DNA of 64,000 nt, taken from NCBI RefSeq assembly GCF_022818495.1, contig NZ_CP089291.1:2033001-2097000 (forward strand). The letters are read 5' to 3'. This DNA comes from Fodinisporobacter ferrooxydans. GTDB taxonomy: Bacteria > Bacillota > Bacilli > Tumebacillales > MYW30-H2. The notes below the pieces were generated by a model. That model searched no databases, was not told the origin of the DNA, and saw only the letters and a program-made list of their open reading frames with translations. Positions 33,780 to 44,254 of this stretch are shown piece by piece. The position numbers and the translations under genes were made by a program. Numbering within the stretch: the first letter of the stretch is position 1; every line of letters starts with the position of its first letter.

Positions 33780-34553
33780 GTGAGGCTGACTGAAAAAGTT
33801 GCTCTAATTACAGGTTCTGGTTCCGGGATCGGCAAAAGCTCGGCGCTATTGTTTGCAAGCGAAGGTGCCAAGGTGATTGTAAATGATGTTTCCCATGAAC
33901 AGGGTATGGCAACCGTACAGGAGATACGGCAAAATGGCGGCGAAGCTTGTTTCCTTCAGGCAGATGTGACAAACGCCGCTGAAGTAGAAGAAATGGTCAA
34001 ACAGGCGCTGCAGCAGTATGGAAAAATTGATGTGCTGTTCAATAATGCGGGAATTTCCGGTGTCGGCAGTGTGCATGAGACAAGTGAAGAACTCTGGGAT
34101 CGAGTGGTCAATGTGAATATCAAGGGAGTTTTTTTGCCGAGCAAATATGTCGTTGTCCATATGATGGAGCGCAAGACGGGCTGCATCATCAATATGTCTT
34201 CCTGCATTGCCGAGATCGGATTGATGCGGCGGGCGGTATATTCTGCGACAAAAGGCGCCGTGCTTGCACTGACCAAATCCATGCAGGTGGACTATGCTCC
34301 CTATAACATTCGTGTAAACGCTTTACTTCCCGGTACGATTCTGACTCCTTTTGTGGAAAATTACTTGCGAACATCCTATGACAATCCGGAAGAAGCCTTT
34401 GAAACTCTGAAAAAACGGCAACTGAGCGGTGATCTTGGCAAGCCGGAAGACGTGGCAAAGGCCGCATTATTCCTTGCTTCCGATGAATCCAAGTTTATGA
34501 TGGGCGCGCCTCTCTATATCGATGGGGGAGCCACCTTTGGGAAAATGGCATAA
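33780..34553 (+). CDS. SDR dehydrogenase, 2-keto-3-deoxy-fuconate/rhamnonate dehydrogenase-like (257 aa)
   Basis: Classical SDR: TGSGSGIGKSSALLFA (cofactor loop), NNAGISGVG, the SS of NMSSCIAEIGL, YSATKGAVLALTKSM with Y-x-x-x-K, and the end KRQLSGDLGKPEDVAKAALFLASDESKFMMG. This end resembles that of 2-keto-3-deoxy-L-fuconate and -rhamnonate 4-dehydrogenases, which make 2,4-diketo-3-deoxy acids. The next gene encodes an FAH hydrolase that could split such a diketo acid. GTG start; GGAG about ten bases before. Confidence 0.75.
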   Translation: MRLTEKVALITGSGSGIGKSSALLFASEGAKVIVNDVSHEQGMATVQEIRQNGGEACFLQADVTNAAEVEEMVKQALQQYGKIDVLFNNAGISGVGSVHETSEELWDRVVNVNIKGVFLPSKYVVVHMMERKTGCIINMSSCIAEIGLMRRAVYSATKGAVLALTKSMQVDYAPYNIRVNALLPGTILTPFVENYLRTSYDNPEEAFETLKKRQLSGDLGKPEDVAKAALFLASDESKFMMGAPLYIDGGATFGKMA

Positions 34554-34709
34554 TCGAAAACTGCCATTCGTATTCTAGTACAGAATCTGGCAGATCGATG
34601 GAACGTCAATCTGGTTATTCTGGTTAATCGCTTGGCGTTTTGGACACGGCAACAAATAAATGTTTTACATAGTTTTCATTTTTAAAAATAGAAAGCAGGG
34701 ACGAAATCA

Positions 34710-35612
34710 ATGAAATTACTTACATTCCGTACATTACATGGACTACAACTGGGTGTCAAAACAGACCGCGGCATTTTGGATGTTGCAAAGGCGGCGGCTG
34801 CACTTGCAACTGAGATGGCAATTCCACAAACCATCGATCAAGTATTAGACGGAAATGCCAATGGAATTGAACATCTGGAAAATCTCGTGTCACAAGCACT
34901 TGCAGGAGAAACGAACAACGACTATTTCTATTCGGAGGAAGAATTAAATATCGGCCCTTGTGTTCCGAATCCCGGGAAAATTATTTGTGTTGGGTTGAAC
35001 TACAGGAAGCATGCGGAAGAATCCAATATGGCAATTCCCACAAGTCCCGTATTATTTAATAAATTTAAAAATGCAATTGCCGCACATGGTGATACTGTGT
35101 CTCTTCCAACGGACGGCGAACAATTCGATTATGAAGCGGAATTGGCCATCGTTATTGGCAAAAAAGCAAAACATGTGGAGAAAGAGCATGCGTTGGATTA
35201 TGTATTTGGCTATTGCAATGCGAATGACCTGTCTGCCCGTGATTTGCAATTCCGCACCAGTCAATGGCTGCTCGGCAAAGCTTGTGATGGATTTAGTCCC
35301 ATCGGTCCATATCTCGTGACAGCGAATGAAGTTGGCAATCCCAATGAACTTGCGATCCGCTGCTACCTGAATGGACAGTTGCGCCAAGATTCCAATACGG
35401 CAGATATGATTTTCTATTGTGACGAAATTGTCAGCTACCTGTCTCGGTATATGACATTAGAACCGGGAGATTTGATTTTGACCGGCACTCCGGAAGGCGT
35501 GATTATGGGATATCCGAAAGAACAGCAAGTATGGTTGCGGGAAGGCGACGAAGTGACGATCGAGATCGAAAAGCTGGGACGACTGACCAATCGAATTCAG
35601 AATGAAGCGTAA
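34710..35612 (+). CDS. Fumarylacetoacetate hydrolase-family protein, diketo-acid hydrolase-like (300 aa)
   Basis: N-terminal cap domain (about 1-75) and FAH fold. Metal and active-site motifs: CVGLNYRKHAEESN, PVLFNKFKNAIAAHGD, DYEAELAIVIGKKA, FGYCNANDLSARDLQF, GDLILTGTPEGVIMG. The E-x-E and D metal ligands are present. The sequence resembles acylpyruvases and 2,4-diketo-3-deoxy-L-fuconate/rhamnonate hydrolases, which give pyruvate plus a hydroxy acid. It sits after an SDR that could make the diketo substrate. AGCAGGG before ATG. Confidence 0.8.
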   Translation: MKLLTFRTLHGLQLGVKTDRGILDVAKAAAALATEMAIPQTIDQVLDGNANGIEHLENLVSQALAGETNNDYFYSEEELNIGPCVPNPGKIICVGLNYRKHAEESNMAIPTSPVLFNKFKNAIAAHGDTVSLPTDGEQFDYEAELAIVIGKKAKHVEKEHALDYVFGYCNANDLSARDLQFRTSQWLLGKACDGFSPIGPYLVTANEVGNPNELAIRCYLNGQLRQDSNTADMIFYCDEIVSYLSRYMTLEPGDLILTGTPEGVIMGYPKEQQVWLREGDEVTIEIEKLGRLTNRIQNEA

Positions 35613-35645
35613 CCCTGTTTTTCTATCATTTTTAAACGGAACATC

Positions 35646-35662
35646 GTTTTATAATATAAAAC
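35646..35662. promoter_or_regulatory. Perfect palindrome GTTTTATAATATAAAAC, copy 1
   Basis: Two 8-bp arms around one A, 22 bp before the ATG of the LarA-like gene. Identical copies lie at 40152 and 40280. Probable IclR-family operator overlapping the promoter. Confidence 0.65.
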
Positions 35663-35684: not shown

Positions 35685-36938
35685 ATGAACGTTCTTGGTG
35701 ATTTGCTGAAGCATGTACCGGTTCCGCGCATGGTCAAAGTACGGCAGTCGTTTTACGCACCGGAAATTGCCGATGTAGCGGCAGCCGTGCAAACAGCAAT
35801 TGGCGAGGCAGGTGTATTATCGCGCATTCAGCCGGGAGATCGGGTAGCGATTGCGGTTGGCAGCAGAGGGATTGCAGATATTCCGATTTTGACGCGAGAA
35901 GTGGTTCGTGCGGTCAAGTCGGTGGGGGGAGAACCTTTTGTCGTGCCGGCGATGGGAAGTCACGGAGGTGCAACTGGTGAAGGACAGCTTGATGTCCTTC
36001 ACCAGTTGGGTGTGACGGAATCGTTTATTGAAGCGCCGATTCATTCCGGCATGGAAGTGGCGGAAGTGGGACGACTGTCCAATGGTCTTCCTGTCTATAT
36101 CGACAAACATGCTTATGGAGCCGATAAAATTATTGTCATTAACCGGATCAAACCGCATACGGCGTTTCGCGGCCCTGTTGAAAGCGGTTTAATGAAAATG
36201 ATCACCATTGGTCTTGGCAAGCAAAAAGGAGCCGAGGCTGCTCATGCCTACAGTTTTAAATATATGGCGGAGCATGTACCGGCAATGGCGAACATGGTCA
36301 TCAGCAAGCTGCCGATTATTTTTGGGCTTGGAACCATTGAAAATGCTTTTGATCGCCCGGCGAAAATCGTGGCAATACCTGCGGAAAAACTGATGGAGGA
36401 TGAACCCGCATTGTTGCTCCAAGCAAAAGCGCTGATGCCAAAGATCCTGTTTGATCCGTTGGATGTATTGGTCGTCGACGAAATCGGCAAAGACATCTCC
36501 GGTGATGGCATGGATCCGAATATTACGGGGCGGTATGCGACTCCCTATGCCAGCGGCGGGCTTGCCGTCAATCGGATCGCTGTCCTCGGGTTGACGGAGA
36601 AAACCCATGGCAACTGCAATGGCCTTGGGCTTGCGGATGTGACGACGCGCCGGGTGTTTGAAGCGATCGATTGGGAAAAAGGATTTGCCAATGCACTGAC
36701 AAGCACTGTGTATGATGTGGTAAAGCTGCCGATGTTTTTTGAAACGGGAGAATTGGCTGTCAAGGCAGCGATTAAAGGAGCAAATCTGGTGCGTCCGGAA
36801 GATGTGCGGCTGGTCCGGATAAAAAATACGCTGGAGGTCCGGGAAATCTGGATCTCGGAAAGTCTTATGCAAGAAGCGCAGGAACGCGACGATGTCGAGC
36901 TGTTGTCCGAACCTTTCGCAATGGACTTTTCCAATTAG
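35685..36938 (+). CDS. LarA-like (lactate racemase N-domain, DUF2088) protein (417 aa)
   Basis: Resembles the LarA superfamily of nickel-pincer-cofactor racemases and epimerases. The Rossmann-like N-terminal domain has VAIAVGSRGIADIPILTREVV and FVVPAMGSHGGATGEGQ. The middle part has INRIKPHTAFRGPVESGLMK with conserved histidine and lysine candidates, and the C-terminal part has VVDEIGKDISGDGMDPN and LGLTEKTHGNCNGLGLAD. LarA homologues act on different 2-hydroxy acids. Here the position before a sugar-acid dehydratase suggests a C2-epimerase for the pathway substrate, which is inference. Cofactor genes larB, larC and larE are not in the window. Confidence 0.65.
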   Translation: MNVLGDLLKHVPVPRMVKVRQSFYAPEIADVAAAVQTAIGEAGVLSRIQPGDRVAIAVGSRGIADIPILTREVVRAVKSVGGEPFVVPAMGSHGGATGEGQLDVLHQLGVTESFIEAPIHSGMEVAEVGRLSNGLPVYIDKHAYGADKIIVINRIKPHTAFRGPVESGLMKMITIGLGKQKGAEAAHAYSFKYMAEHVPAMANMVISKLPIIFGLGTIENAFDRPAKIVAIPAEKLMEDEPALLLQAKALMPKILFDPLDVLVVDEIGKDISGDGMDPNITGRYATPYASGGLAVNRIAVLGLTEKTHGNCNGLGLADVTTRRVFEAIDWEKGFANALTSTVYDVVKLPMFFETGELAVKAAIKGANLVRPEDVRLVRIKNTLEVREIWISESLMQEAQERDDVELLSEPFAMDFSN

Positions 36939-36950
36939 GGAGTGACTGGC

Positions 36951-39179
36951 ATGACGATTTCAAACGTTGAAAAAGAAACACGAACGAAATATGCGTATCC
37001 GCCGATTGACAATCCGATCAACCCATATCGGGATAACGTTCAGGGGAAAGCGAATGAGCCGATAACGGTTGCCGCATTTCTGGACCGTGCCAAGCAGATT
37101 CTCGGCAGGCAATATGAGGGTCCGGCACCTGACTGGACGTTGGAGGAGATTTATAACCGCCTGGAAATCAATGCGCCGCGGATTGCGATTATTGGCGGTT
37201 CCCCCGATCATCCGGCGCATATCATGGATTTTCAAACATCTGCCATTGCAGCCGTCCGGATTTGGCAAAATGGCGGGATTCCCTTTTATTTTTCCACGCC
37301 GGTATTGTGCGACGGGACAGCACAGAACAATATGGGTATGAGCTATTCCCTGCAAAGCCGGAATGCAGTGGCGCAAATGGTTGTCAATCAACTGGAAGCA
37401 CACAGTTATCACGGGGCATTTGTCATACAAGGATGTGACAAACAGCCTTTGGGTGTCGTCAGTGCTCTGGCGCATATTGACAGACTCCGCAGACTGCGGG
37501 GGGAAGCGCCTTTCTTTGCCACCTTTGCGCCCGCACATGTACTCAAGGGCGGCACCATTCCGGAGGATTTGTTCGGCGCACTGGAAGATGTGGCGAAACG
37601 GGCAGAACAAATGGGTGCATCTGACGTTGCGGAAGACTTGCGCGATACACTCTCCTATATTTTACAATGCTCTTCCAATACGGCTTTTCAAGGTGTGCTC
37701 ATGCGAGCGGTGGAAAAAGGGATTCTTACACCTGTTGAACACAAAGATTTTGAAAGGCGGCTGGCAGTCAATACGTGTGACGGAAAAGGCGGCATTTGCG
37801 CGTTTAACGGTACGGGAAATAGTTCCCGTCATTTGGTTGCCGGATTAGGATTGGTACACCCGGCGCTGGAATTACTGGCAGACCCGCCAACGGGACGGCA
37901 GATCAATCAGGCGGTGGACAGTTTAGCTGTGATGATCAACAATCCGGTCTTTGGTGCAGCCAATATTGTCGGAGCCAATATTCGAAATGCCATTCGGATT
38001 CACAGTGCGTCCGGCGGTTCGACAAATCTCATGATGCATTTGGTTGCCGCCATGTTATATGGAGGCTTCAAATTTGACGTGTGGGAATTAAACCGGATTC
38101 ATCATGAACATCCGATCCCTGATTTGTTCGATTATAGTTTGACGGAGGGTCGGGATATTTTTGCATTGGCGATGCAATGCTGCAGCGGACATATTCGCGG
38201 GATGGAGACGCTATTCCACGAGTTGATGGAAAACGGCGTGCCGATGGATCTGGATGCGCCGACTGTGACGGGAACATCCTGGCGCGATCGATTGCAGGAG
38301 AAAGGATCGTTATCCGCAGCTGGCGTAAAGGAAAATCCGGTGATTCTTTCCAAGCCCCGTCGTCCATTCAGCGGTGTCGATGTATTGACAGGCAATTTTT
38401 TTGAAAGCGCAGTCGTAAAAATCAGCGGCATGACGACAAAGCAACTGGATGAATTCGATAAAAAAGTCGCAGGTGTTCTCTATTATGAGAATGAAGATGA
38501 TGCCAATACGGGCCTTCTGGACACCGATTTGCTGGAAAAGCTGAAAAACCGGCAATGTTTTAGCAGGCAGCATCTCCTTGCGATGCTGAAGCACAATCAT
38601 CCGATCTATGAGCCGCACTGGGAGACAGCGCCTTATGACTCTTTATTCGATCATATGGTACAAATCGGCGCATTAAAGCTTGCTGTCGTCATTGCCGGTC
38701 AGGGTCCTGTCGCTTTCGGCATGCCGGAAATGTTTACACCCATGCAGCATATTAACGCCAATCGCTTGTTGAAGCGTTTGGCAACACTGATTAGCGACGG
38801 CAGGTATTCCGGTGTCACGTATGGTGCTGCTGTCGGTCATATGACGCCGGAAGCGATGGAAGACGGCGGAATTCTCTATCTGCAAACAGGTGATCTGCTG
38901 TACTTGAATTTGCGGGAAGATCAGATTCAATATATCGATGCGGCAGAATTTGTACAAGGAAACTTGGTGTTTGACTTTGCGTCCACCCGACAGCAACGGC
39001 AAGATTTTGTGCAGGAACGGTTGGAGCGGATGCGGAAGCGGCAACGGTTTGTGGCTGCCGGCAATCGCATGAAAGGACACACGGATGCGGCGAACGGCGT
39101 CGTTCCGGAGCAGGTTGCGGAAGAAGCGGAGTTGGATTACAAAACGGATGTGCAATTTCTTGTATCGCTCACTCTGTAA
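36951..39179 (+). CDS. IlvD/Edd-family sugar-acid dehydratase, YjhG/YagF (D-xylonate dehydratase) type
   Basis: At 742 aa this is longer than IlvD (about 560) and close to YjhG/YagF. Iron-sulfur and active-site segments: PVLCDGTAQNNMGMS, VIQGCDKQPLGVVSALAHIDR, NTCDGKGGICAFNGTGNSSRHL, SGGSTNLMMHLVAAML and ISDGRYSGVTYGAAVGHMTPEA. Enzymes of this type dehydrate a pentonate to 2-keto-3-deoxypentonate. ATG 36951 has GGGAG eight bases before it. It starts 12 bp after the LarA-like gene, in one operon under the palindrome at 35646. Confidence 0.85.
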   Translation: MTISNVEKETRTKYAYPPIDNPINPYRDNVQGKANEPITVAAFLDRAKQILGRQYEGPAPDWTLEEIYNRLEINAPRIAIIGGSPDHPAHIMDFQTSAIAAVRIWQNGGIPFYFSTPVLCDGTAQNNMGMSYSLQSRNAVAQMVVNQLEAHSYHGAFVIQGCDKQPLGVVSALAHIDRLRRLRGEAPFFATFAPAHVLKGGTIPEDLFGALEDVAKRAEQMGASDVAEDLRDTLSYILQCSSNTAFQGVLMRAVEKGILTPVEHKDFERRLAVNTCDGKGGICAFNGTGNSSRHLVAGLGLVHPALELLADPPTGRQINQAVDSLAVMINNPVFGAANIVGANIRNAIRIHSASGGSTNLMMHLVAAMLYGGFKFDVWELNRIHHEHPIPDLFDYSLTEGRDIFALAMQCCSGHIRGMETLFHELMENGVPMDLDAPTVTGTSWRDRLQEKGSLSAAGVKENPVILSKPRRPFSGVDVLTGNFFESAVVKISGMTTKQLDEFDKKVAGVLYYENEDDANTGLLDTDLLEKLKNRQCFSRQHLLAMLKHNHPIYEPHWETAPYDSLFDHMVQIGALKLAVVIAGQGPVAFGMPEMFTPMQHINANRLLKRLATLISDGRYSGVTYGAAVGHMTPEAMEDGGILYLQTGDLLYLNLREDQIQYIDAAEFVQGNLVFDFASTRQQRQDFVQERLERMRKRQRFVAAGNRMKGHTDAANGVVPEQVAEEAELDYKTDVQFLVSLTL

Positions 39180-39225: not shown

Positions 39226-39276
39226 TTACAACTGTAAATATTGCGAGGATTGATTTTTCGAAAAAGGGTGAGTGAC

Positions 39277-40047
39277 TTGCCGATCATTCAGGCTGTAGAC
39301 CGTGCACTCCAAATATTGGATCTATTTGATGAGTACGAAACAGAATTGAAAATTACAGATATTAGTGAGCGTATGCAATTGCATAAGAGTACGATCCACT
39401 CGTTGCTAAAAACGCTGCAAGTACGTGGCTACATTGAACAGAATCCGGAAAACGGCAAATACAAATTGGGACTCAAGCTTTTTGAACGAGGCAATTTGGT
39501 CATCAACGGATTGGATTTGCGGACAACGGCCAGAAAACACTTGATGGAACTATCTTTTAAAACCGGTCAGACTGTTCACTTGGTGATTCTCGACGGCAAG
39601 GAAGGTGTATATATCGATAAAGTGGAAGGCAGTTCCGGGATTATTGCCTATTCGCGAATCGGCCGCCGGGTTCCCATTCATTCCAGTGCTGTCGGCAAAG
39701 CGTTGGTCGCATTTTCGCCTGCTGCGGATATAGAACGCATTTTGGATGGATACGTATTTGGAAAGCGAACGGAAAATACAATTCTAAATCGGGAAGACTT
39801 TCTGCGCGAATTAGAGCAAGTTCGCAGACAGGAATATGCCATTGATGACCAGGAAAATGAGCCGGGAGTTCGCTGTGTGGCTGTGCCCATCCGCAACTAT
39901 TCCGGACAGGCGGTTGCAGCGATCAGCATTTCTACGCCGATTTCCGGGTTGGATGATGAACAGTTTGACCAATTGCTTGCGCTTTTGCAGGAAACAGCAC
40001 AGCAAATATCGCGTCAAATGGGGTTTGGTTTGCATACTCGCAGGTAA
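39277..40047 (+). CDS. IclR-family transcriptional regulator, second copy (256 aa)
   Basis: Winged HTH (IIQAVDRALQILDLFDEYETELKITDISERMQLHKSTIHSLLKTLQVRGYIEQN) and IclR effector domain (GQTVHLVILDGKEGVYIDKVEG, RVPIHSSAVGKALVAFSP, YAIDDQENEPGVRCVAVPIRN). The frame opens at 39241; the TTG at 39277 with AAAGG nine bases before it places the start just ahead of the HTH. It lies between two operons preceded by the GTTTTATAATATAAAAC palindrome, and is a good candidate to bind it. Confidence 0.87.
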   Translation: MPIIQAVDRALQILDLFDEYETELKITDISERMQLHKSTIHSLLKTLQVRGYIEQNPENGKYKLGLKLFERGNLVINGLDLRTTARKHLMELSFKTGQTVHLVILDGKEGVYIDKVEGSSGIIAYSRIGRRVPIHSSAVGKALVAFSPAADIERILDGYVFGKRTENTILNREDFLRELEQVRRQEYAIDDQENEPGVRCVAVPIRNYSGQAVAAISISTPISGLDDEQFDQLLALLQETAQQISRQMGFGLHTRR

Positions 40048-40151: not shown

Positions 40152-40168
40152 GTTTTATAATATAAAAC
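40152..40168. promoter_or_regulatory. Palindrome GTTTTATAATATAAAAC, copy 2
   Basis: Identical to 35646-35662. It is 128 bp upstream of copy 3, close to twelve helical turns, which would permit looping. The gap 40048-40312 holds only these sites and AT-rich promoter-like sequence. Confidence 0.6.
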
Positions 40169-40279: not shown

Positions 40280-40296
40280 GTTTTATAATATAAAAC
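40280..40296. promoter_or_regulatory. Palindrome GTTTTATAATATAAAAC, copy 3
   Basis: Identical copy ending 16 bp before the ATG of the FAH-type dehydratase gene. Here it would also overlap the leader and block transcription or initiation. Confidence 0.65.
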
Positions 40297-40312: not shown

Positions 40313-41215
40313 ATGCGCATTTTTCGTTATATTGATGAAAACGGTAACATTACTCTCGCGGCTATGAATGATCAGAATCACATGTTTCCATTGGCGTATC
40401 GGGATTTTTTACATTTGGTGGAAGAAGCGGAAAAGCAAGGAGTAACACCTTTGACACTCGTTCAACAATCGATTCAAAATACGTCCCCTTTAGAAACTTC
40501 GCTGGAACAGCTGCAATTGCTCGTACCGATTGAAGCGCCGGAAGTTTGGGCCGCTGGTGTCACGTATGAGAGAAGCAGAGATGCAAGGAATTATGAAGCA
40601 ACCGGCGGCAAGCTCGATGCGAAAACTTTTTATGATAAAGTCTATGATGCAGAACGCCCGGAACTGTTCATGAAATCAACGGCAGCACGGACGATTGGGC
40701 CTGACGGAGAGCTTTATATCCGCAGTGACTCCAACTGGCAGATCCCGGAACCCGAGCTTGGGCTTGTACTGAATAAGGAAGGGAAGATCCTCGGTTATAC
40801 AGCGGGCAATGATTTAAGCTGCCGTGATATTGAAGGGGAAAATCCGCTCTATTTGCCACAAGCGAAAATCTGGAAAAATTCCTGTTCCATCGGACCGGTG
40901 ATTCGTTTGGCGGAAACGGTACAGGATCCCTATTCCCTGCAAATTACTTGCAAGATTCATAGAAACGGCGAGAAAATGGTAGAGGGAACAGCGAATACTT
41001 CCCAATTAAAACGCAAGTATGATGAACTTGTCTCCTATTTGATCCGGGATAATATCATCTTTGACGGTACAGTGCTATTGACGGGTACTTGCATCGTACC
41101 GCCCAATGAATTTACATTGCAGGATGGCGATCAAGTGGAAATTGAAATTTCGGAAATCGGCGTTCTTTCGAATCCGATCCGGCAACGAGTCAAGCAGACG
41201 GCAAGTGTTTCATAA
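40313..41215 (+). CDS. FAH-family 2-keto-3-deoxypentonate (arabinonate/xylonate) dehydratase-like protein (300 aa)
   Basis: Differs from the first FAH protein and matches the 2-keto-3-deoxy-D-arabinonate dehydratase type. Seen are PEVWAAGVTYERSRDARNYEATGG, FYDKVYDAERPELFMKSTAAR, IPEPELGLVLN (E-x-E ligands), YTAGNDLSCRDIEGENPLYLPQAKIW and LLTGTCIVPPNEFTL. Such enzymes turn 2-keto-3-deoxypentonate into 2-oxoglutarate semialdehyde. The same operon encodes an aldehyde dehydrogenase suited to that product. AAAGGGGAT before ATG. Confidence 0.8.
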   Translation: MRIFRYIDENGNITLAAMNDQNHMFPLAYRDFLHLVEEAEKQGVTPLTLVQQSIQNTSPLETSLEQLQLLVPIEAPEVWAAGVTYERSRDARNYEATGGKLDAKTFYDKVYDAERPELFMKSTAARTIGPDGELYIRSDSNWQIPEPELGLVLNKEGKILGYTAGNDLSCRDIEGENPLYLPQAKIWKNSCSIGPVIRLAETVQDPYSLQITCKIHRNGEKMVEGTANTSQLKRKYDELVSYLIRDNIIFDGTVLLTGTCIVPPNEFTLQDGDQVEIEISEIGVLSNPIRQRVKQTASVS

Positions 41216-41306
41216 TGCATCAATTCGAATGTAATTAAATCAATTGAGAACTATGGTTGCAGACAGTGTCAAGGGATATGGTTATGAAAGGAAGGGAAAA
41301 GGATCA

Positions 41307-41615
41307 ATGGAATCTACCTATCGTGTTGTCATGATGAAGCCAATTGATAAAGTTGCCGTTGTCTTATCAAATTCGATTCCTGCAGGTACACATGTTGCAG
41401 TGACATGCCAGGAGCACACATTCGAAGTGAATTTGAAAGATACAATCGAATTTGGCCATAAGTTTGCAGTTGTTCCGATTCAAAAAGGTGAGGATATCTT
41501 GAAATACGGCGAAGTGATCGGCGCTGCCGTTCGCGATATCGATGCCGGAGAACATGTGCATGTTCATAACTTGGAGGGGAAAAGGGGAAGGGGCGATAAA
41601 GTTGTCAATGGGTAA
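41307..41615 (+). CDS. UxaA-family dehydratase/lyase, small (SAF-domain) subunit (102 aa)
   Basis: SAF-domain protein equal to the N-terminal part of altronate/galactarate dehydratases. Seen are VVMMKPIDKVAVVLSNSIPAG, DTIEFGHKFAVVPIQKGEDILKYGEVIGAAVRDIDAGEHVHVHN; the GHK and YGE motifs are typical. ATG 41307 follows AAAAGGA; the earlier frame from 41244 has no site. It overlaps the large subunit by 14 bases. In the family, two-gene forms include altronate-type dehydratases and sulfolactate lyase (SuyAB). Confidence 0.8.
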   Translation: MESTYRVVMMKPIDKVAVVLSNSIPAGTHVAVTCQEHTFEVNLKDTIEFGHKFAVVPIQKGEDILKYGEVIGAAVRDIDAGEHVHVHNLEGKRGRGDKVVNG

Positions 41616-42768
41616 ATTTTGGGGATATCGACGGCCGGACGGACGAGTTGGCGTGCGCAATCATGTATTGATTCTCCCCACCATCACTTGCGCGACACAG
41701 GCAGCAAAACAAATCACGGAATTGGTACAGGGAACGGTTTCCTTTATCCATCAACATGGCTGTGCACAAGTCGGCGTCGACTATGAACAGACATTCCGCA
41801 CCTATGTTGGTTTAGGGGCCAATCCGAATGTCTATGGCGTGATTGTCATGGGACTTGGCTGTGAAACACACCAGGCCAGAAGCATCGCGGGTGAAATCGC
41901 CAAGACGGGCAAGCCTGTGGAAGTGGTCTCCATTCAGGATCATGGCGGGACATTGATGACGATTGCACAAGGTGCAAAAATCGCTGCACAGATGGTTCAG
42001 GATGCTTCTGCAATGATGCGTGAACTGTGCGACTTCAGCGAATTGATCGTTGGTACCGAGTGCGGAGGGTCTGATGCCTGCTCAGGTCTGTCGGCCAATC
42101 CGGCGGTTGGCGTCGTAAGCGATATGATCGTCGATCATGGCGGGACAGCGATTTTGGCTGAGACAACCGAATTGATCGGTGCGGAACATTTGCTTGCAAA
42201 TCGTGCAGTTGACGACAAAGTGGCAAAGCGGGTATATGAAGTGATCCAGGCGATGGAAAATCGCGCCATCCTCATGGGTGTGGATATTCGTACAGGCAAT
42301 CCAAGCCCGGGAAACATCAAGGGCGGTTTAAGCTCTCTGGAGGAAAAATCCCTGGGGGCAGCGGCCAAAGCAGGCAGTCGGCCATTGCAAGAACTGATCG
42401 ATTATGGTCAAGTTCCGACGAAGAAAGGTCTTGTCTCGATGGATACTCCCGGACATGATATCGAGCAATTGACAGGCATGGTGGCCGGTGGCGCGCAAGT
42501 CGTTTTATTTACAAGCGGTCGCGGCACACCGACAGGCTCCCCAATCGCACCTGTCATCAAGATTGCCACAAACTCGGGAATGTTTGAACGGATGCGGGAT
42601 AACATGGATCTTAACGCCGGGACGATCATTGAGGGTGTAGAAACGATCGATTCCGTAGGCAAGCGTATTTTTGCCGAGATTGGATCTGTAGCTTCCGGCA
42701 AGTTGACAAAAGCGGAAATTTTAAAACAACACGATTTTGGCTTGTGGCGCATTGGGCCGACATTCTAA
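41602..42768 (+). CDS. UxaA-family dehydratase/lyase, large subunit (388 aa)
   Basis: TTG start eight bases after GGGGAAGGGG, inside the end of the small-subunit gene. [52 protein letters not shown] and [37 protein letters not shown] are the hallmarks of the large UxaA/GarD domain, with iron-binding residues in the C and H motifs. With the small subunit it should dehydrate a sugar acid (altronate or galactarate-like). Sulfolactate lyase is a related alternative, but the keto-deoxy-acid genes on both sides favour a sugar acid. Confidence 0.82.
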
Positions 42769-42787
42769 GAAAGGTGGACTTCGATCG

Positions 42788-44254
42788 ATGGCAACAGAAA
42801 CACAAGTACAAATCTATGGCAATTATATCAACGGCGAATGGGTGACTGCTTCTTCGCAAGAACCAATTGCCAGCATCAATCCTGCGAATACCAAGGAAGT
42901 TGTGGGGTATTTGCAAAATTCCACGAGCGATGATTTGAATCGCGCTGTTGCAGCGGCCAAGGAGGCACAGCCTGCATGGAGAAAATTATCAGGCGCTGTC
43001 CGCGGCGAATATTTGTATAAAATCGCCAGTGAAATGGAAAAACGTCTCGATGAGATCGCCGCAACGATGACCCGGGAAATGGGAAAAACATTTGGCGAAG
43101 CAAAAGGTGAAACGTTGCGCGGGATCAACATTCTTCGCTATTATGCCGGCGAAGGCATGCGCAAAGTCGGCGATGTCATTCCGTCGAGCGACAGTGAAGC
43201 GCTTATGTTTACGACACGTGTTCCACTTGGGGTTGTCGGTGTTATTACACCATGGAATTTTCCGGTGGCGATTCCCATTTGGAAAATGGCTCCTGCTTTG
43301 ATTTATGGGAATTCGATCGTATTTAAGCCTGCTTCTGAAACAGGGGTGACGGCTGCAAAAATTGTCGAGTGCATGGATGCAGCCGGCTTGCCTGCAGGTG
43401 TCGTGAATTTGGTCTGCGGCAGCGGATCTGTGATCGGGCAAGGGATTGCCGAACATCCAAGCATCAATGGAGTTACATTTACAGGCTCGAATACTGTCGG
43501 AAAACAGATCGGACAGACGTGTCTTGCCCGCGGCGCCAAGTATCAGTTGGAAATGGGCGGAAAAAACCCGGTGATTGTTGCAAATGATGCGGATCTTGAC
43601 CAGGCCGTAGAAGCGACCATCAGCGGCGGACTTCGTTCTACCGGACAAAAATGTACAGCGACCAGCCGCGTGATCGTACAAAGCGGAATCTATGATGCAT
43701 TTAAAGAAAAATTAATAGAAAAAGTAGAAGCATTAAAAGTTGGCGATGGATTGCAAGGCGAGACCTGGATGGGGCCGTGTGCCAATGCAAACCAATTAAA
43801 AACTGTGCTTTCCTACATAGAAAAAGGCATTGCGGAAGGTGCGACGCTGATTGCCGGCGGTGGCAAGCCAGATGCGGAAGATCTGGCAAGCGGATACTAT
43901 GTGCAGCCGACCGTGTTTGAAGATGTGACCGGCAGCATGTCGATTGCACAGGAGGAAATATTCGGACCCGTCCTCGCGCTCATGAAAGTTGAAACGTTGG
44001 AAGAAGCATTGGAAATTGCCAATGATGTGGAATATGGTCTCAGCGCTTCGATATTCACAAAAAACATCGGCAATATGCTTGCGTTCATTCAGGACATGGA
44101 TGCCGGCCTTGTGCGAATCAATGCAGAAAGCGCCGGCGTAGAATTGCAGGCACCATTCGGGGGCATGAAGCAGTCCAGTTCACATTCAAGAGAGCAAGGC
44201 CAGGCAGCGATTGAGTTTTTCACTGCAATCAAAACGGTCTTTGTAAAACCATAG
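42788..44254 (+). CDS. Aldehyde dehydrogenase, 2-oxoglutarate-semialdehyde (2,5-dioxovalerate) type (488 aa)
   Basis: NAD(P)-dependent ALDH with [12 protein letters not shown], the catalytic glutamate in QLEMGGKNP and catalytic cysteine in [14 protein letters not shown]. The C terminus [27 protein letters not shown] resembles YcbD/GucD-type dehydrogenases of glucarate and pentonate degradation, which oxidise 2-oxoglutarate semialdehyde to 2-oxoglutarate. ATG 42788 preceded by AAAGGTGG. Last gene of the operon beginning at 40313. Confidence 0.85.

Follow-up and report, generated by a model that had tools for sequence, protein, structure and literature searches.

Why should an operon for sugar acids carry a LarA homologue directly in front of a dehydratase, and on which acid would the encoded protein act? 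We investigated the gene at positions 35685–36938 (plus strand) of a 64,000-nucleotide stretch of Fodinisporobacter ferrooxydans DNA, which is called the window throughout. Based on its family, its conserved residues and its neighbours, we propose, with a probability of roughly 70%, that it encodes a nickel-pincer aldonate C2-epimerase of group 22 of the LarA superfamily, which would most likely convert D-lyxonate to D-xylonate and thereby feed the IlvD/Edd-family dehydratase of the same operon.

The reading frame is open, starts with ATG and encodes 417 amino acids. A reading of this DNA made from the sequence alone (the sequence-only reading) had called the product a LarA homologue, and this was borne out by the Pfam family Lar_N (PF09861; 41.5 bits, cut-off 23.3) and by the NCBIfam model NF052515, "nickel pincer cofactor-dependent isomerase, group 22", which matched residues 13–400 with 550.1 bits (cut-off 400) and whose name carries a group number and no substrate. 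The NCBIfam models for malate racemase and LarAH10 reached at most 34.7 bits, and the Pfam family DUF362 was barely above its cut-off (24.6 bits, cut-off 24). Neither the protein nor alignment A1, used as a sequence query against the PDB, retrieved a usable relative. The AlphaFold2 model, built from 47 homologues with a mean pLDDT of 93.6, matched the two-domain LarA fold. Its best PDB match was 9eid (Z 22.5, rmsd 3.6, 321 residues aligned, model residues 12–386), followed by malate racemase, single-histidine LarA homologues, L. plantarum LarA (6c1w, 5huq) and T. maritima GntE2 (4nar). The top 12 rows of this fold comparison were all LarA-family entries (Z 18.8–22.5, 307–330 residues), and the first unrelated entry had a Z of 6.8. 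The assignment of the product to group 22 of the LarA superfamily is well supported.

Residue conservation was counted over 113 aligned group-22 rows, 111 of them different. R61, H93, H158, K171 and H187 were invariant (113/113) and were paired by MAFFT with R75, H108, H174, K184 and H200 of LarA; this pairing was made via the genome's own classical larA, itself alignable to L. plantarum LarA. Mapped in this way, the catalytic histidine pair, the lysine that binds the cofactor, the histidine ligand of nickel and the arginine that binds phosphate were all kept, in agreement with the epimerase suspected in the sequence-only reading; the loss of catalytic histidines and lysine that this reading had named as a refutation was not seen. 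When hhalign was run against the single classical larA of the genome (probability 52), the arginine and the histidines paired and K171 stood opposite a proline, so that the probable equivalence of K171 and K184 follows from MAFFT and from the distance to the nickel histidine, which is 16 residues both in group 22 (K171–H187) and in LarA (K184–H200). In the mechanism that we propose, the nickel-pincer cofactor (NPN) would be bound through K171 and H187, and C2 of the aldonate would be inverted as a hydride passes to the cofactor and back, H93 and H158 acting as the alternating acid/base pair.

The protein thus shares these five residues and the two-domain fold with LarA of Lactiplantibacillus plantarum (5huq, 6c1w) and LarAH2 of Isosphaera pallida (9eia, 9eid), and nevertheless differs from them in several respects. 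None of the 113 group-22 rows had an Asp at positions 57–60, so no alignment of this segment can supply the catalytic D72 of LarA. The hhalign alignment stops at the LDQN/MDPN segment, ahead of K298, whose counterpart was not placed; among the group-22 rows, K269 was invariant (113/113) and R283 frequent (99/113). The second histidine and the lysine are 13 residues apart in group 22 and 10 in LarA and LarAH2, and the histidine is followed by Thr-Ala instead of Phe-Phe. Because D72 is absent, the protein was filed only as superfamily group 22 and not as a classical LarA (D72, H108, H174 and K298 set). In PMC7583248, D72 and K298 are counted among the catalytic residues, with the warning that stereocentre inversion may not occur in LarA groups without K298 or H174. 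Group 22 might accordingly be a LarA fold that performs another hydride-transfer reaction without stereocentre inversion, or that uses something other than NPN as its cofactor. The lack of recognisable D72 and K298 equivalents points in that direction, whereas the invariance of both catalytic histidines, of the lysine for the cofactor and of the histidine for nickel points away from it, and we consider such a protein very unlikely.

The central motif NRIKPHTAFRGP, which carries H158 (the H174 equivalent), had been described as different from that of classical LarA. It is present in the protein and does differ, but it is the norm of group 22 and not an oddity of one protein, with T159 (109 of the 113 rows), A160 (90), F161 (111) and R162 (98). 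The GntE signature of groups 18–20, in which Glu and then Val/Ser immediately follow the second catalytic histidine (PMC7583248 and PMC11770544), was absent, since group 22 has Thr-Ala there. The protein was therefore not filed as a GntE, though it may work like one. The proposed aldonate C2 chemistry resembles that of the D-gluconate 2-epimerases GntE2 (LarAH20, Thermotoga maritima, 4nar) and GntE1 (LarAH19), and the predicted model shares the superfamily fold with 4nar (Z 18.8, 311 residues). The differences from the GntE enzymes, apart from the signature, are an identity of 13% and an operon that would lead to 2-oxoglutarate and not to 6-phosphogluconate.

An epimerase of this kind depends on the genes for its cofactor, whose absence the sequence-only reading had regarded as fatal to its proposal. 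This objection falls, because larB, larC and larE all occur in the genome, which is a single contig (C1) of 4.86 Mb. The larB gene lies at C1:2312056 (285.8 bits), larC lies in one frame at C1:2287794 and as a split copy at C1:2312709/2313662, and two larE genes above the cut-off lie at C1:2284387 and C1:2302823. The larC at C1:2312709–2314072 consists of two adjacent reading frames and is likewise split in several related operons. Five Lar_N genes were found in the genome: four belong to group 22, and the fifth is a classical larA with a larE next to it.

The comparison was extended to 398 sampled Bacillota genomes, among which group 22 was common, with 85 carriers above the cut-off, and 225 had LarC. 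LarC was missing from 23 of the 85 group-22 carriers, and the same 23 also lacked LarB and LarE over the cut-offs; the LarB/LarE search covered 80 carriers, the five left out being larC-positive. LarB was over its cut-off in 53 and LarE in 51 of these 80, so that one of the two is missing from a few larC-positive genomes as well. In two of the 23 LarC-less carriers (G007 and G127, loci L131 and L133), UxaC, a presumed Gnd, two genes, LarA22, an SDR and a kinase stood in order. Such carriers, including the two with this gene order, also argue for a group 22 that does without inversion or without NPN. On the other hand, larC was missing about as often (60/199) from the carriers of classical LarA, defined by Lar_N at E < 1e-20, so its absence says nothing special about group 22, and we rejected NPN-gene loss as a special trait of this group. 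Of these 60 LarC-less classical carriers, the 50 outside the earlier LarB search were then searched for LarB, and 49 lacked it. In total, 72 of the 229 LarA-bearing genomes in the sample were without both larB and larC; therefore, either NPN moves between cells or the proteins do without it. Many of these genomes are fragmented drafts, which makes single cases of absence unsafe. The larB/larC-less carriers assembled as a single contig included G021, G190, G234 and G348; larE, which was searched for among group-22 carriers, was absent from G190 too, and G021 (2.88 Mb) held three group-22 copies. The converse case, larBCE without larA, is described in PMC11796402, and our literature search found no paper on larA carriers without larB/larC.

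The surroundings of group-22 genes were compared in 84 loci, namely the best 80 of 590 confirmed stretches, three paralogue loci and the window; the 80 are not a random choice, so the sample leans towards the window's own kind. At least one of larB, larC and larE lay within 6.5 kb of the group-22 gene in 31 of these 84 loci. That the cofactor genes adjoin many group-22 genes in this best-80 set also argues against a protein that needs no NPN. In the window's own clade, 7 of 18 loci of the same set showed a lar cofactor gene in the available DNA.

With the epimerase as the preferred reading, the question becomes what the neighbouring genes would do with its product. The stop codon of the epimerase gene ends at 36938 and the ATG of the dehydratase gene stands at 36951, which confirms the reported gap of 12 bp. 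This dehydratase (36951–39179, plus strand, as are all genes of the window described here; PF00920/PF24877; longest listed reading frame from GTG 36942) is a long-form member of the IlvD/Edd family. The long form has 732–776 amino acids in 15 members and keeps seven Cys columns in 15/15. Eight NCBIfam models matched the dehydratase, all far below their cut-offs, and its best PDB matches were dihydroxy-acid dehydratases (E about 1e-27). Considering this distance from the tested sugar-acid dehydratases, its stereospecificity is an assumption here. It is followed by an IclR-family, KdgR-like regulator (39241–40047; PF01614/PF09339; KdgR model 211 bits, below the cut-off of 275), an FAH-family homologue of 2-keto-3-deoxy-D-arabinonate dehydratase (40313–41215; closest PDB entry 2q18, E 2.9e-73), the SAF-domain small subunit (41244–41615; PF08666) and the large subunit (41542–42768; PF20629/PF04295) of a UxaA/GarD-type dehydratase, and an alpha-ketoglutaric semialdehyde dehydrogenase (42737–44254; NF042993, 891 bits, cut-off 770). 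The large-subunit reading frame overlaps the SAF gene at its start, and its true start is probably downstream. No TRAP transporter gene was seen in the window.

The sequence-only reading had argued that an epimerase step before a stereospecific dehydratase would widen the range of acids used. By analogy, this fits the dehydratase data in PMC9314677, where IlvD/Edd sugar-acid dehydratases accept only the (2R,3S) configuration and a tested enzyme used D-xylonate and not D-lyxonate, D-arabinonate or D-ribonate. If the dehydratase of the window needs the same configuration, an epimerase in front of it would admit D-lyxonate. In the pathway proposed here, the epimerase would convert a (2S,3S) D-pentonate, most likely D-lyxonate, to its (2R,3S) epimer D-xylonate, and the dehydratase, presumably co-transcribed, would convert D-xylonate to 2-keto-3-deoxy-D-pentonate. 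The FAH-family dehydratase (40313) would then yield alpha-ketoglutaric semialdehyde and the dehydrogenase (42737) 2-oxoglutarate, and these two would run Route II as given in PMC6336799. Two genes upstream of the epimerase may form a parallel branch: an SDR oxidoreductase (33780–34553; PF13561), which by comparison with PMC6336799 is a possible 2-keto-3-deoxypentonate 4-dehydrogenase, and an FAH-family hydrolase (34710–35612; PF01557), possibly a diketo-acid hydrolase. The best PDB chain for the latter was 1gtt of the 4-hydroxyphenylacetate pathway (E 9.2e-67), the third match was 8gsr, a diketo-deoxyrhamnonate hydrolase (E 3.4e-53), and the score against NF053535 was 236 bits, below the cut-off of 500. 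Together the two genes (33780–35612) could form Route III of that source. The window therefore resembles the pentose Routes II/III of Herbaspirillum huttiense (PMC6336799) in its pentonate dehydratases, FAH keto-deoxypentonate dehydratase and ketoglutarate-semialdehyde dehydrogenase and, for Route III, in its SDR and FAH hydrolase. Unlike those routes, which show no such step in the accessible text, a C2-epimerase is predicted ahead of the dehydratase here.

The epimerase and dehydratase genes had also been placed under a common palindrome, and this palindrome is real. The 17-bp sequence GTTTTATAATATAAAAC, a likely operator, lies at 35646–35662, 22 bp before the start codon of the epimerase gene, and two further exact copies (40152–40168 and 40280–40296) lie upstream of the FAH-family gene at 40313. 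These three were the only exact copies in the 4.86-Mb genome. When up to two mismatches were allowed, two further genomic sites appeared; the backward-read control was no lower (7 forward hits vs 5), so only the exact copies are meaningful. Among 19 related loci, 13 had at least one site that differed from the palindrome at no more than one position, and these sites preceded the TRAP binding-protein gene, the FAH gene or both. Since it contains TATAAT, it may overlap the promoter. The IclR-family protein encoded at 39241 is a candidate for its binding and would, in our proposal, read the palindrome and control both transcription units. A KdgR-like box at 35634 (AAACGGAACATCGTTT) was discarded as an operator, because it was not conserved in the 19 related loci and the adjoining palindrome was; matches to this box with up to three mismatches numbered 8 in the window against 2.73 expected.

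A sugar-acid catabolic gene stood within 6.5 kb of the group-22 gene in 70 of the 84 loci (best 80 of 590, three paralogues and the window). Neighbours were labelled by profile scans of one representative each or of the window proteins; TRAP membrane subunits, Gnd, ROK, LacI, KdgK, Eda, AKR and AEC are presumed identities. The LarA cluster itself was counted in 81 of the 84 loci, as an antisense frame from the simple ORF caller displaced the LarA gene in L079, L118 and L125. Of the 84 loci, 22 were sorted into the window's type (type A), 38 into another (type B) and 24 into neither. Type A comprises LarA22, the dehydratase, IclR, the FAH dehydratase, the SAF and UxaA-type dehydratase and the semialdehyde dehydrogenase, and elsewhere it usually stands behind a TRAP transporter. 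In a tree from a quick search, the window fell in a clade of 18 rows (SH-aLRT 100), 16 of them type A, and 37 of the 38 type-B rows fell in another clade of 53 rows. Within the window's clade in this sample, 16 of 18 loci had the dehydratase cluster, 14 the TRAP binding protein, 14 the FAH dehydratase, 12 the semialdehyde dehydrogenase and 11 the UxaA-type gene. A protein of about 316 amino acids with a weak Peptidase_U32 match lies just after the dehydratase in L063 (11493–12440) and also in the type-A loci L049, L050 and L051.

These counts bear on a second substrate pair. An enzyme of the same class could interconvert D-ribonate and D-arabinonate and feed the UxaA/GarD-type dehydratase (41244–42768) as a D-arabinonate dehydratase. 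Among PDB entries, the FAH gene at 40313 best matches a 2-keto-3-deoxy-D-arabinonate dehydratase, the palindrome stands on both transcription units, and, according to PMC6336799, Herbaspirillum has a D-arabinonate dehydratase of the COG2721 (UxaA/GarD) type whose gene clusters with those of the FAH family. Yet the directly adjoining gene, and also the most constant neighbour in this best-80 set, was the IlvD/Edd gene (16/18) and not the UxaA-type gene (11/18), and in L052–L054 the epimerase, IlvD/Edd, FAH and semialdehyde dehydrogenase genes were kept without a UxaA-type gene in the available DNA. This pair therefore appears rather unlikely to us.

Type B has a different set of neighbours, including glucuronate isomerase (NF002794, 634 bits over 387), LarA22, D-mannonate oxidoreductase (NF006132, 293 bits over 281), LarE, an FGGY gluconokinase-like kinase (TIGR01314, 486 bits, below the cut-off of 648.55), LarB and LarC, with each score from one representative. 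What we take to be a 6-phosphogluconate dehydrogenase-like gene is often present as well. The 38 type-B genomes were picked by eye, and one of them (L107) shows no kinase. These neighbours (UxaC, mannonate oxidoreductase, gluconokinase-like kinase) call for a C2 step from mannonate to gluconate. We did not find support for type-B copies replacing mannonate dehydratase, because UxuA was over its cut-off in 22 of the 38 such genomes, the window genome included. A mannonate-gluconate epimerase link in Thermotoga was proposed by Rodionova et al. 2012, as cited in PMC6978723, and L. suebicus gets to the same point, according to that paper, via 6-phosphomannonate and an epimerase of unassigned identity. 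Given this second route, the kinase of type B may act before or after the epimerase.

The other group-22 copies of the window genome were found in further contexts. In L015 (5076–8734; C1:3267.1–3270.7 kb) the order is UxaC, LarA22, SDR and a gluconokinase-like gene, which is probably a mannonate-to-gluconate route beside the genome's own UxuA; a gene near it is presumably 6-phosphogluconate dehydrogenase-like. The third copy, in L014 (3576–7767; C1:2205.6–2209.8 kb), has a 594-aa IlvD/Edd dehydratase on one side and a zinc alcohol dehydrogenase on the other, apparently in another sugar-acid operon, with what we take to be an MFS-like transporter nearby. The fourth copy, in L016 (5512–6891; C1:1525.5 kb), is diverged, has a KVHTDF loop and is flanked by genes presumed to be esterase-like and LysR-like.

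Could the window protein then act on hexonates like the paralogue type, turning D-mannonate into D-gluconate or using another C6 aldonate, e.g., D-talonate to D-galactonate? The sister clade with its gluconokinase-like and glucuronate isomerase genes suggests so, as does the fact that the loop residues 159–163, 166, 309–311, 313, 318, 321, 336 and 339–342 are identical or almost identical between the two clades. One neighbour of the gene in L061 scored as galactonate dehydratase (602.9 bits, cut-off 311), and presumed KdgK- and Eda-like genes in some loci were counted on the same side. Against this, thirteen alignment columns differ consistently between the two clades, a different group-22 copy of the genome already stands next to UxaC, SDR and GntK genes, and the 2-keto-3-deoxypentonate dehydratase homologue and the ketoglutarate-semialdehyde dehydrogenase of the operon suit C5 acids. 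A hexonate substrate is thus unlikely in our view. D-lyxonate and D-xylonate share the C2–C4 configuration of D-mannonate and D-gluconate. Based on this configuration, shared with the pair proposed for type B, and on the near-identical loop residues, we made D-lyxonate/D-xylonate the first choice among substrate pairs, with perhaps one chance in three, D-ribonate/D-arabinonate and the hexonates being its rivals.

Our literature search found no assay of group 22 and no use of the name "LarAH22", though supplementary tables may hold a note on its context. Among the parts of the sources available to us, Table 1 of PMC7583248 gives 13 tested homologues, none numbered 22, PMC11770544 adds LarAH10, 15, 32, 42, 43, 51, 52, 62 and 66, and PMC12611868 deals with the single-histidine LarA subfamily, which is not group 22. 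Here, substrates are proposed for two group-22 clades from gene order, the palindrome and the dehydratase stereochemistry published in PMC9314677. In a wider and still doubtful picture, group 22 would be a large family that inverts aldonates at C2 with NPN and so allows a single dehydratase or kinase to handle either C2 epimer; the operon studied here would add a pentonate 2-epimerisation, which we did not find described in the LarA papers, and NPN, which about one-third of LarA hosts would not make themselves, would there be a shared, scavenged cofactor or be replaced. If the proposal is true, many Firmicutes would rely routinely on nickel-pincer chemistry when using sugar acids, and group-22 enzymes would be candidates for producing rare aldonates.
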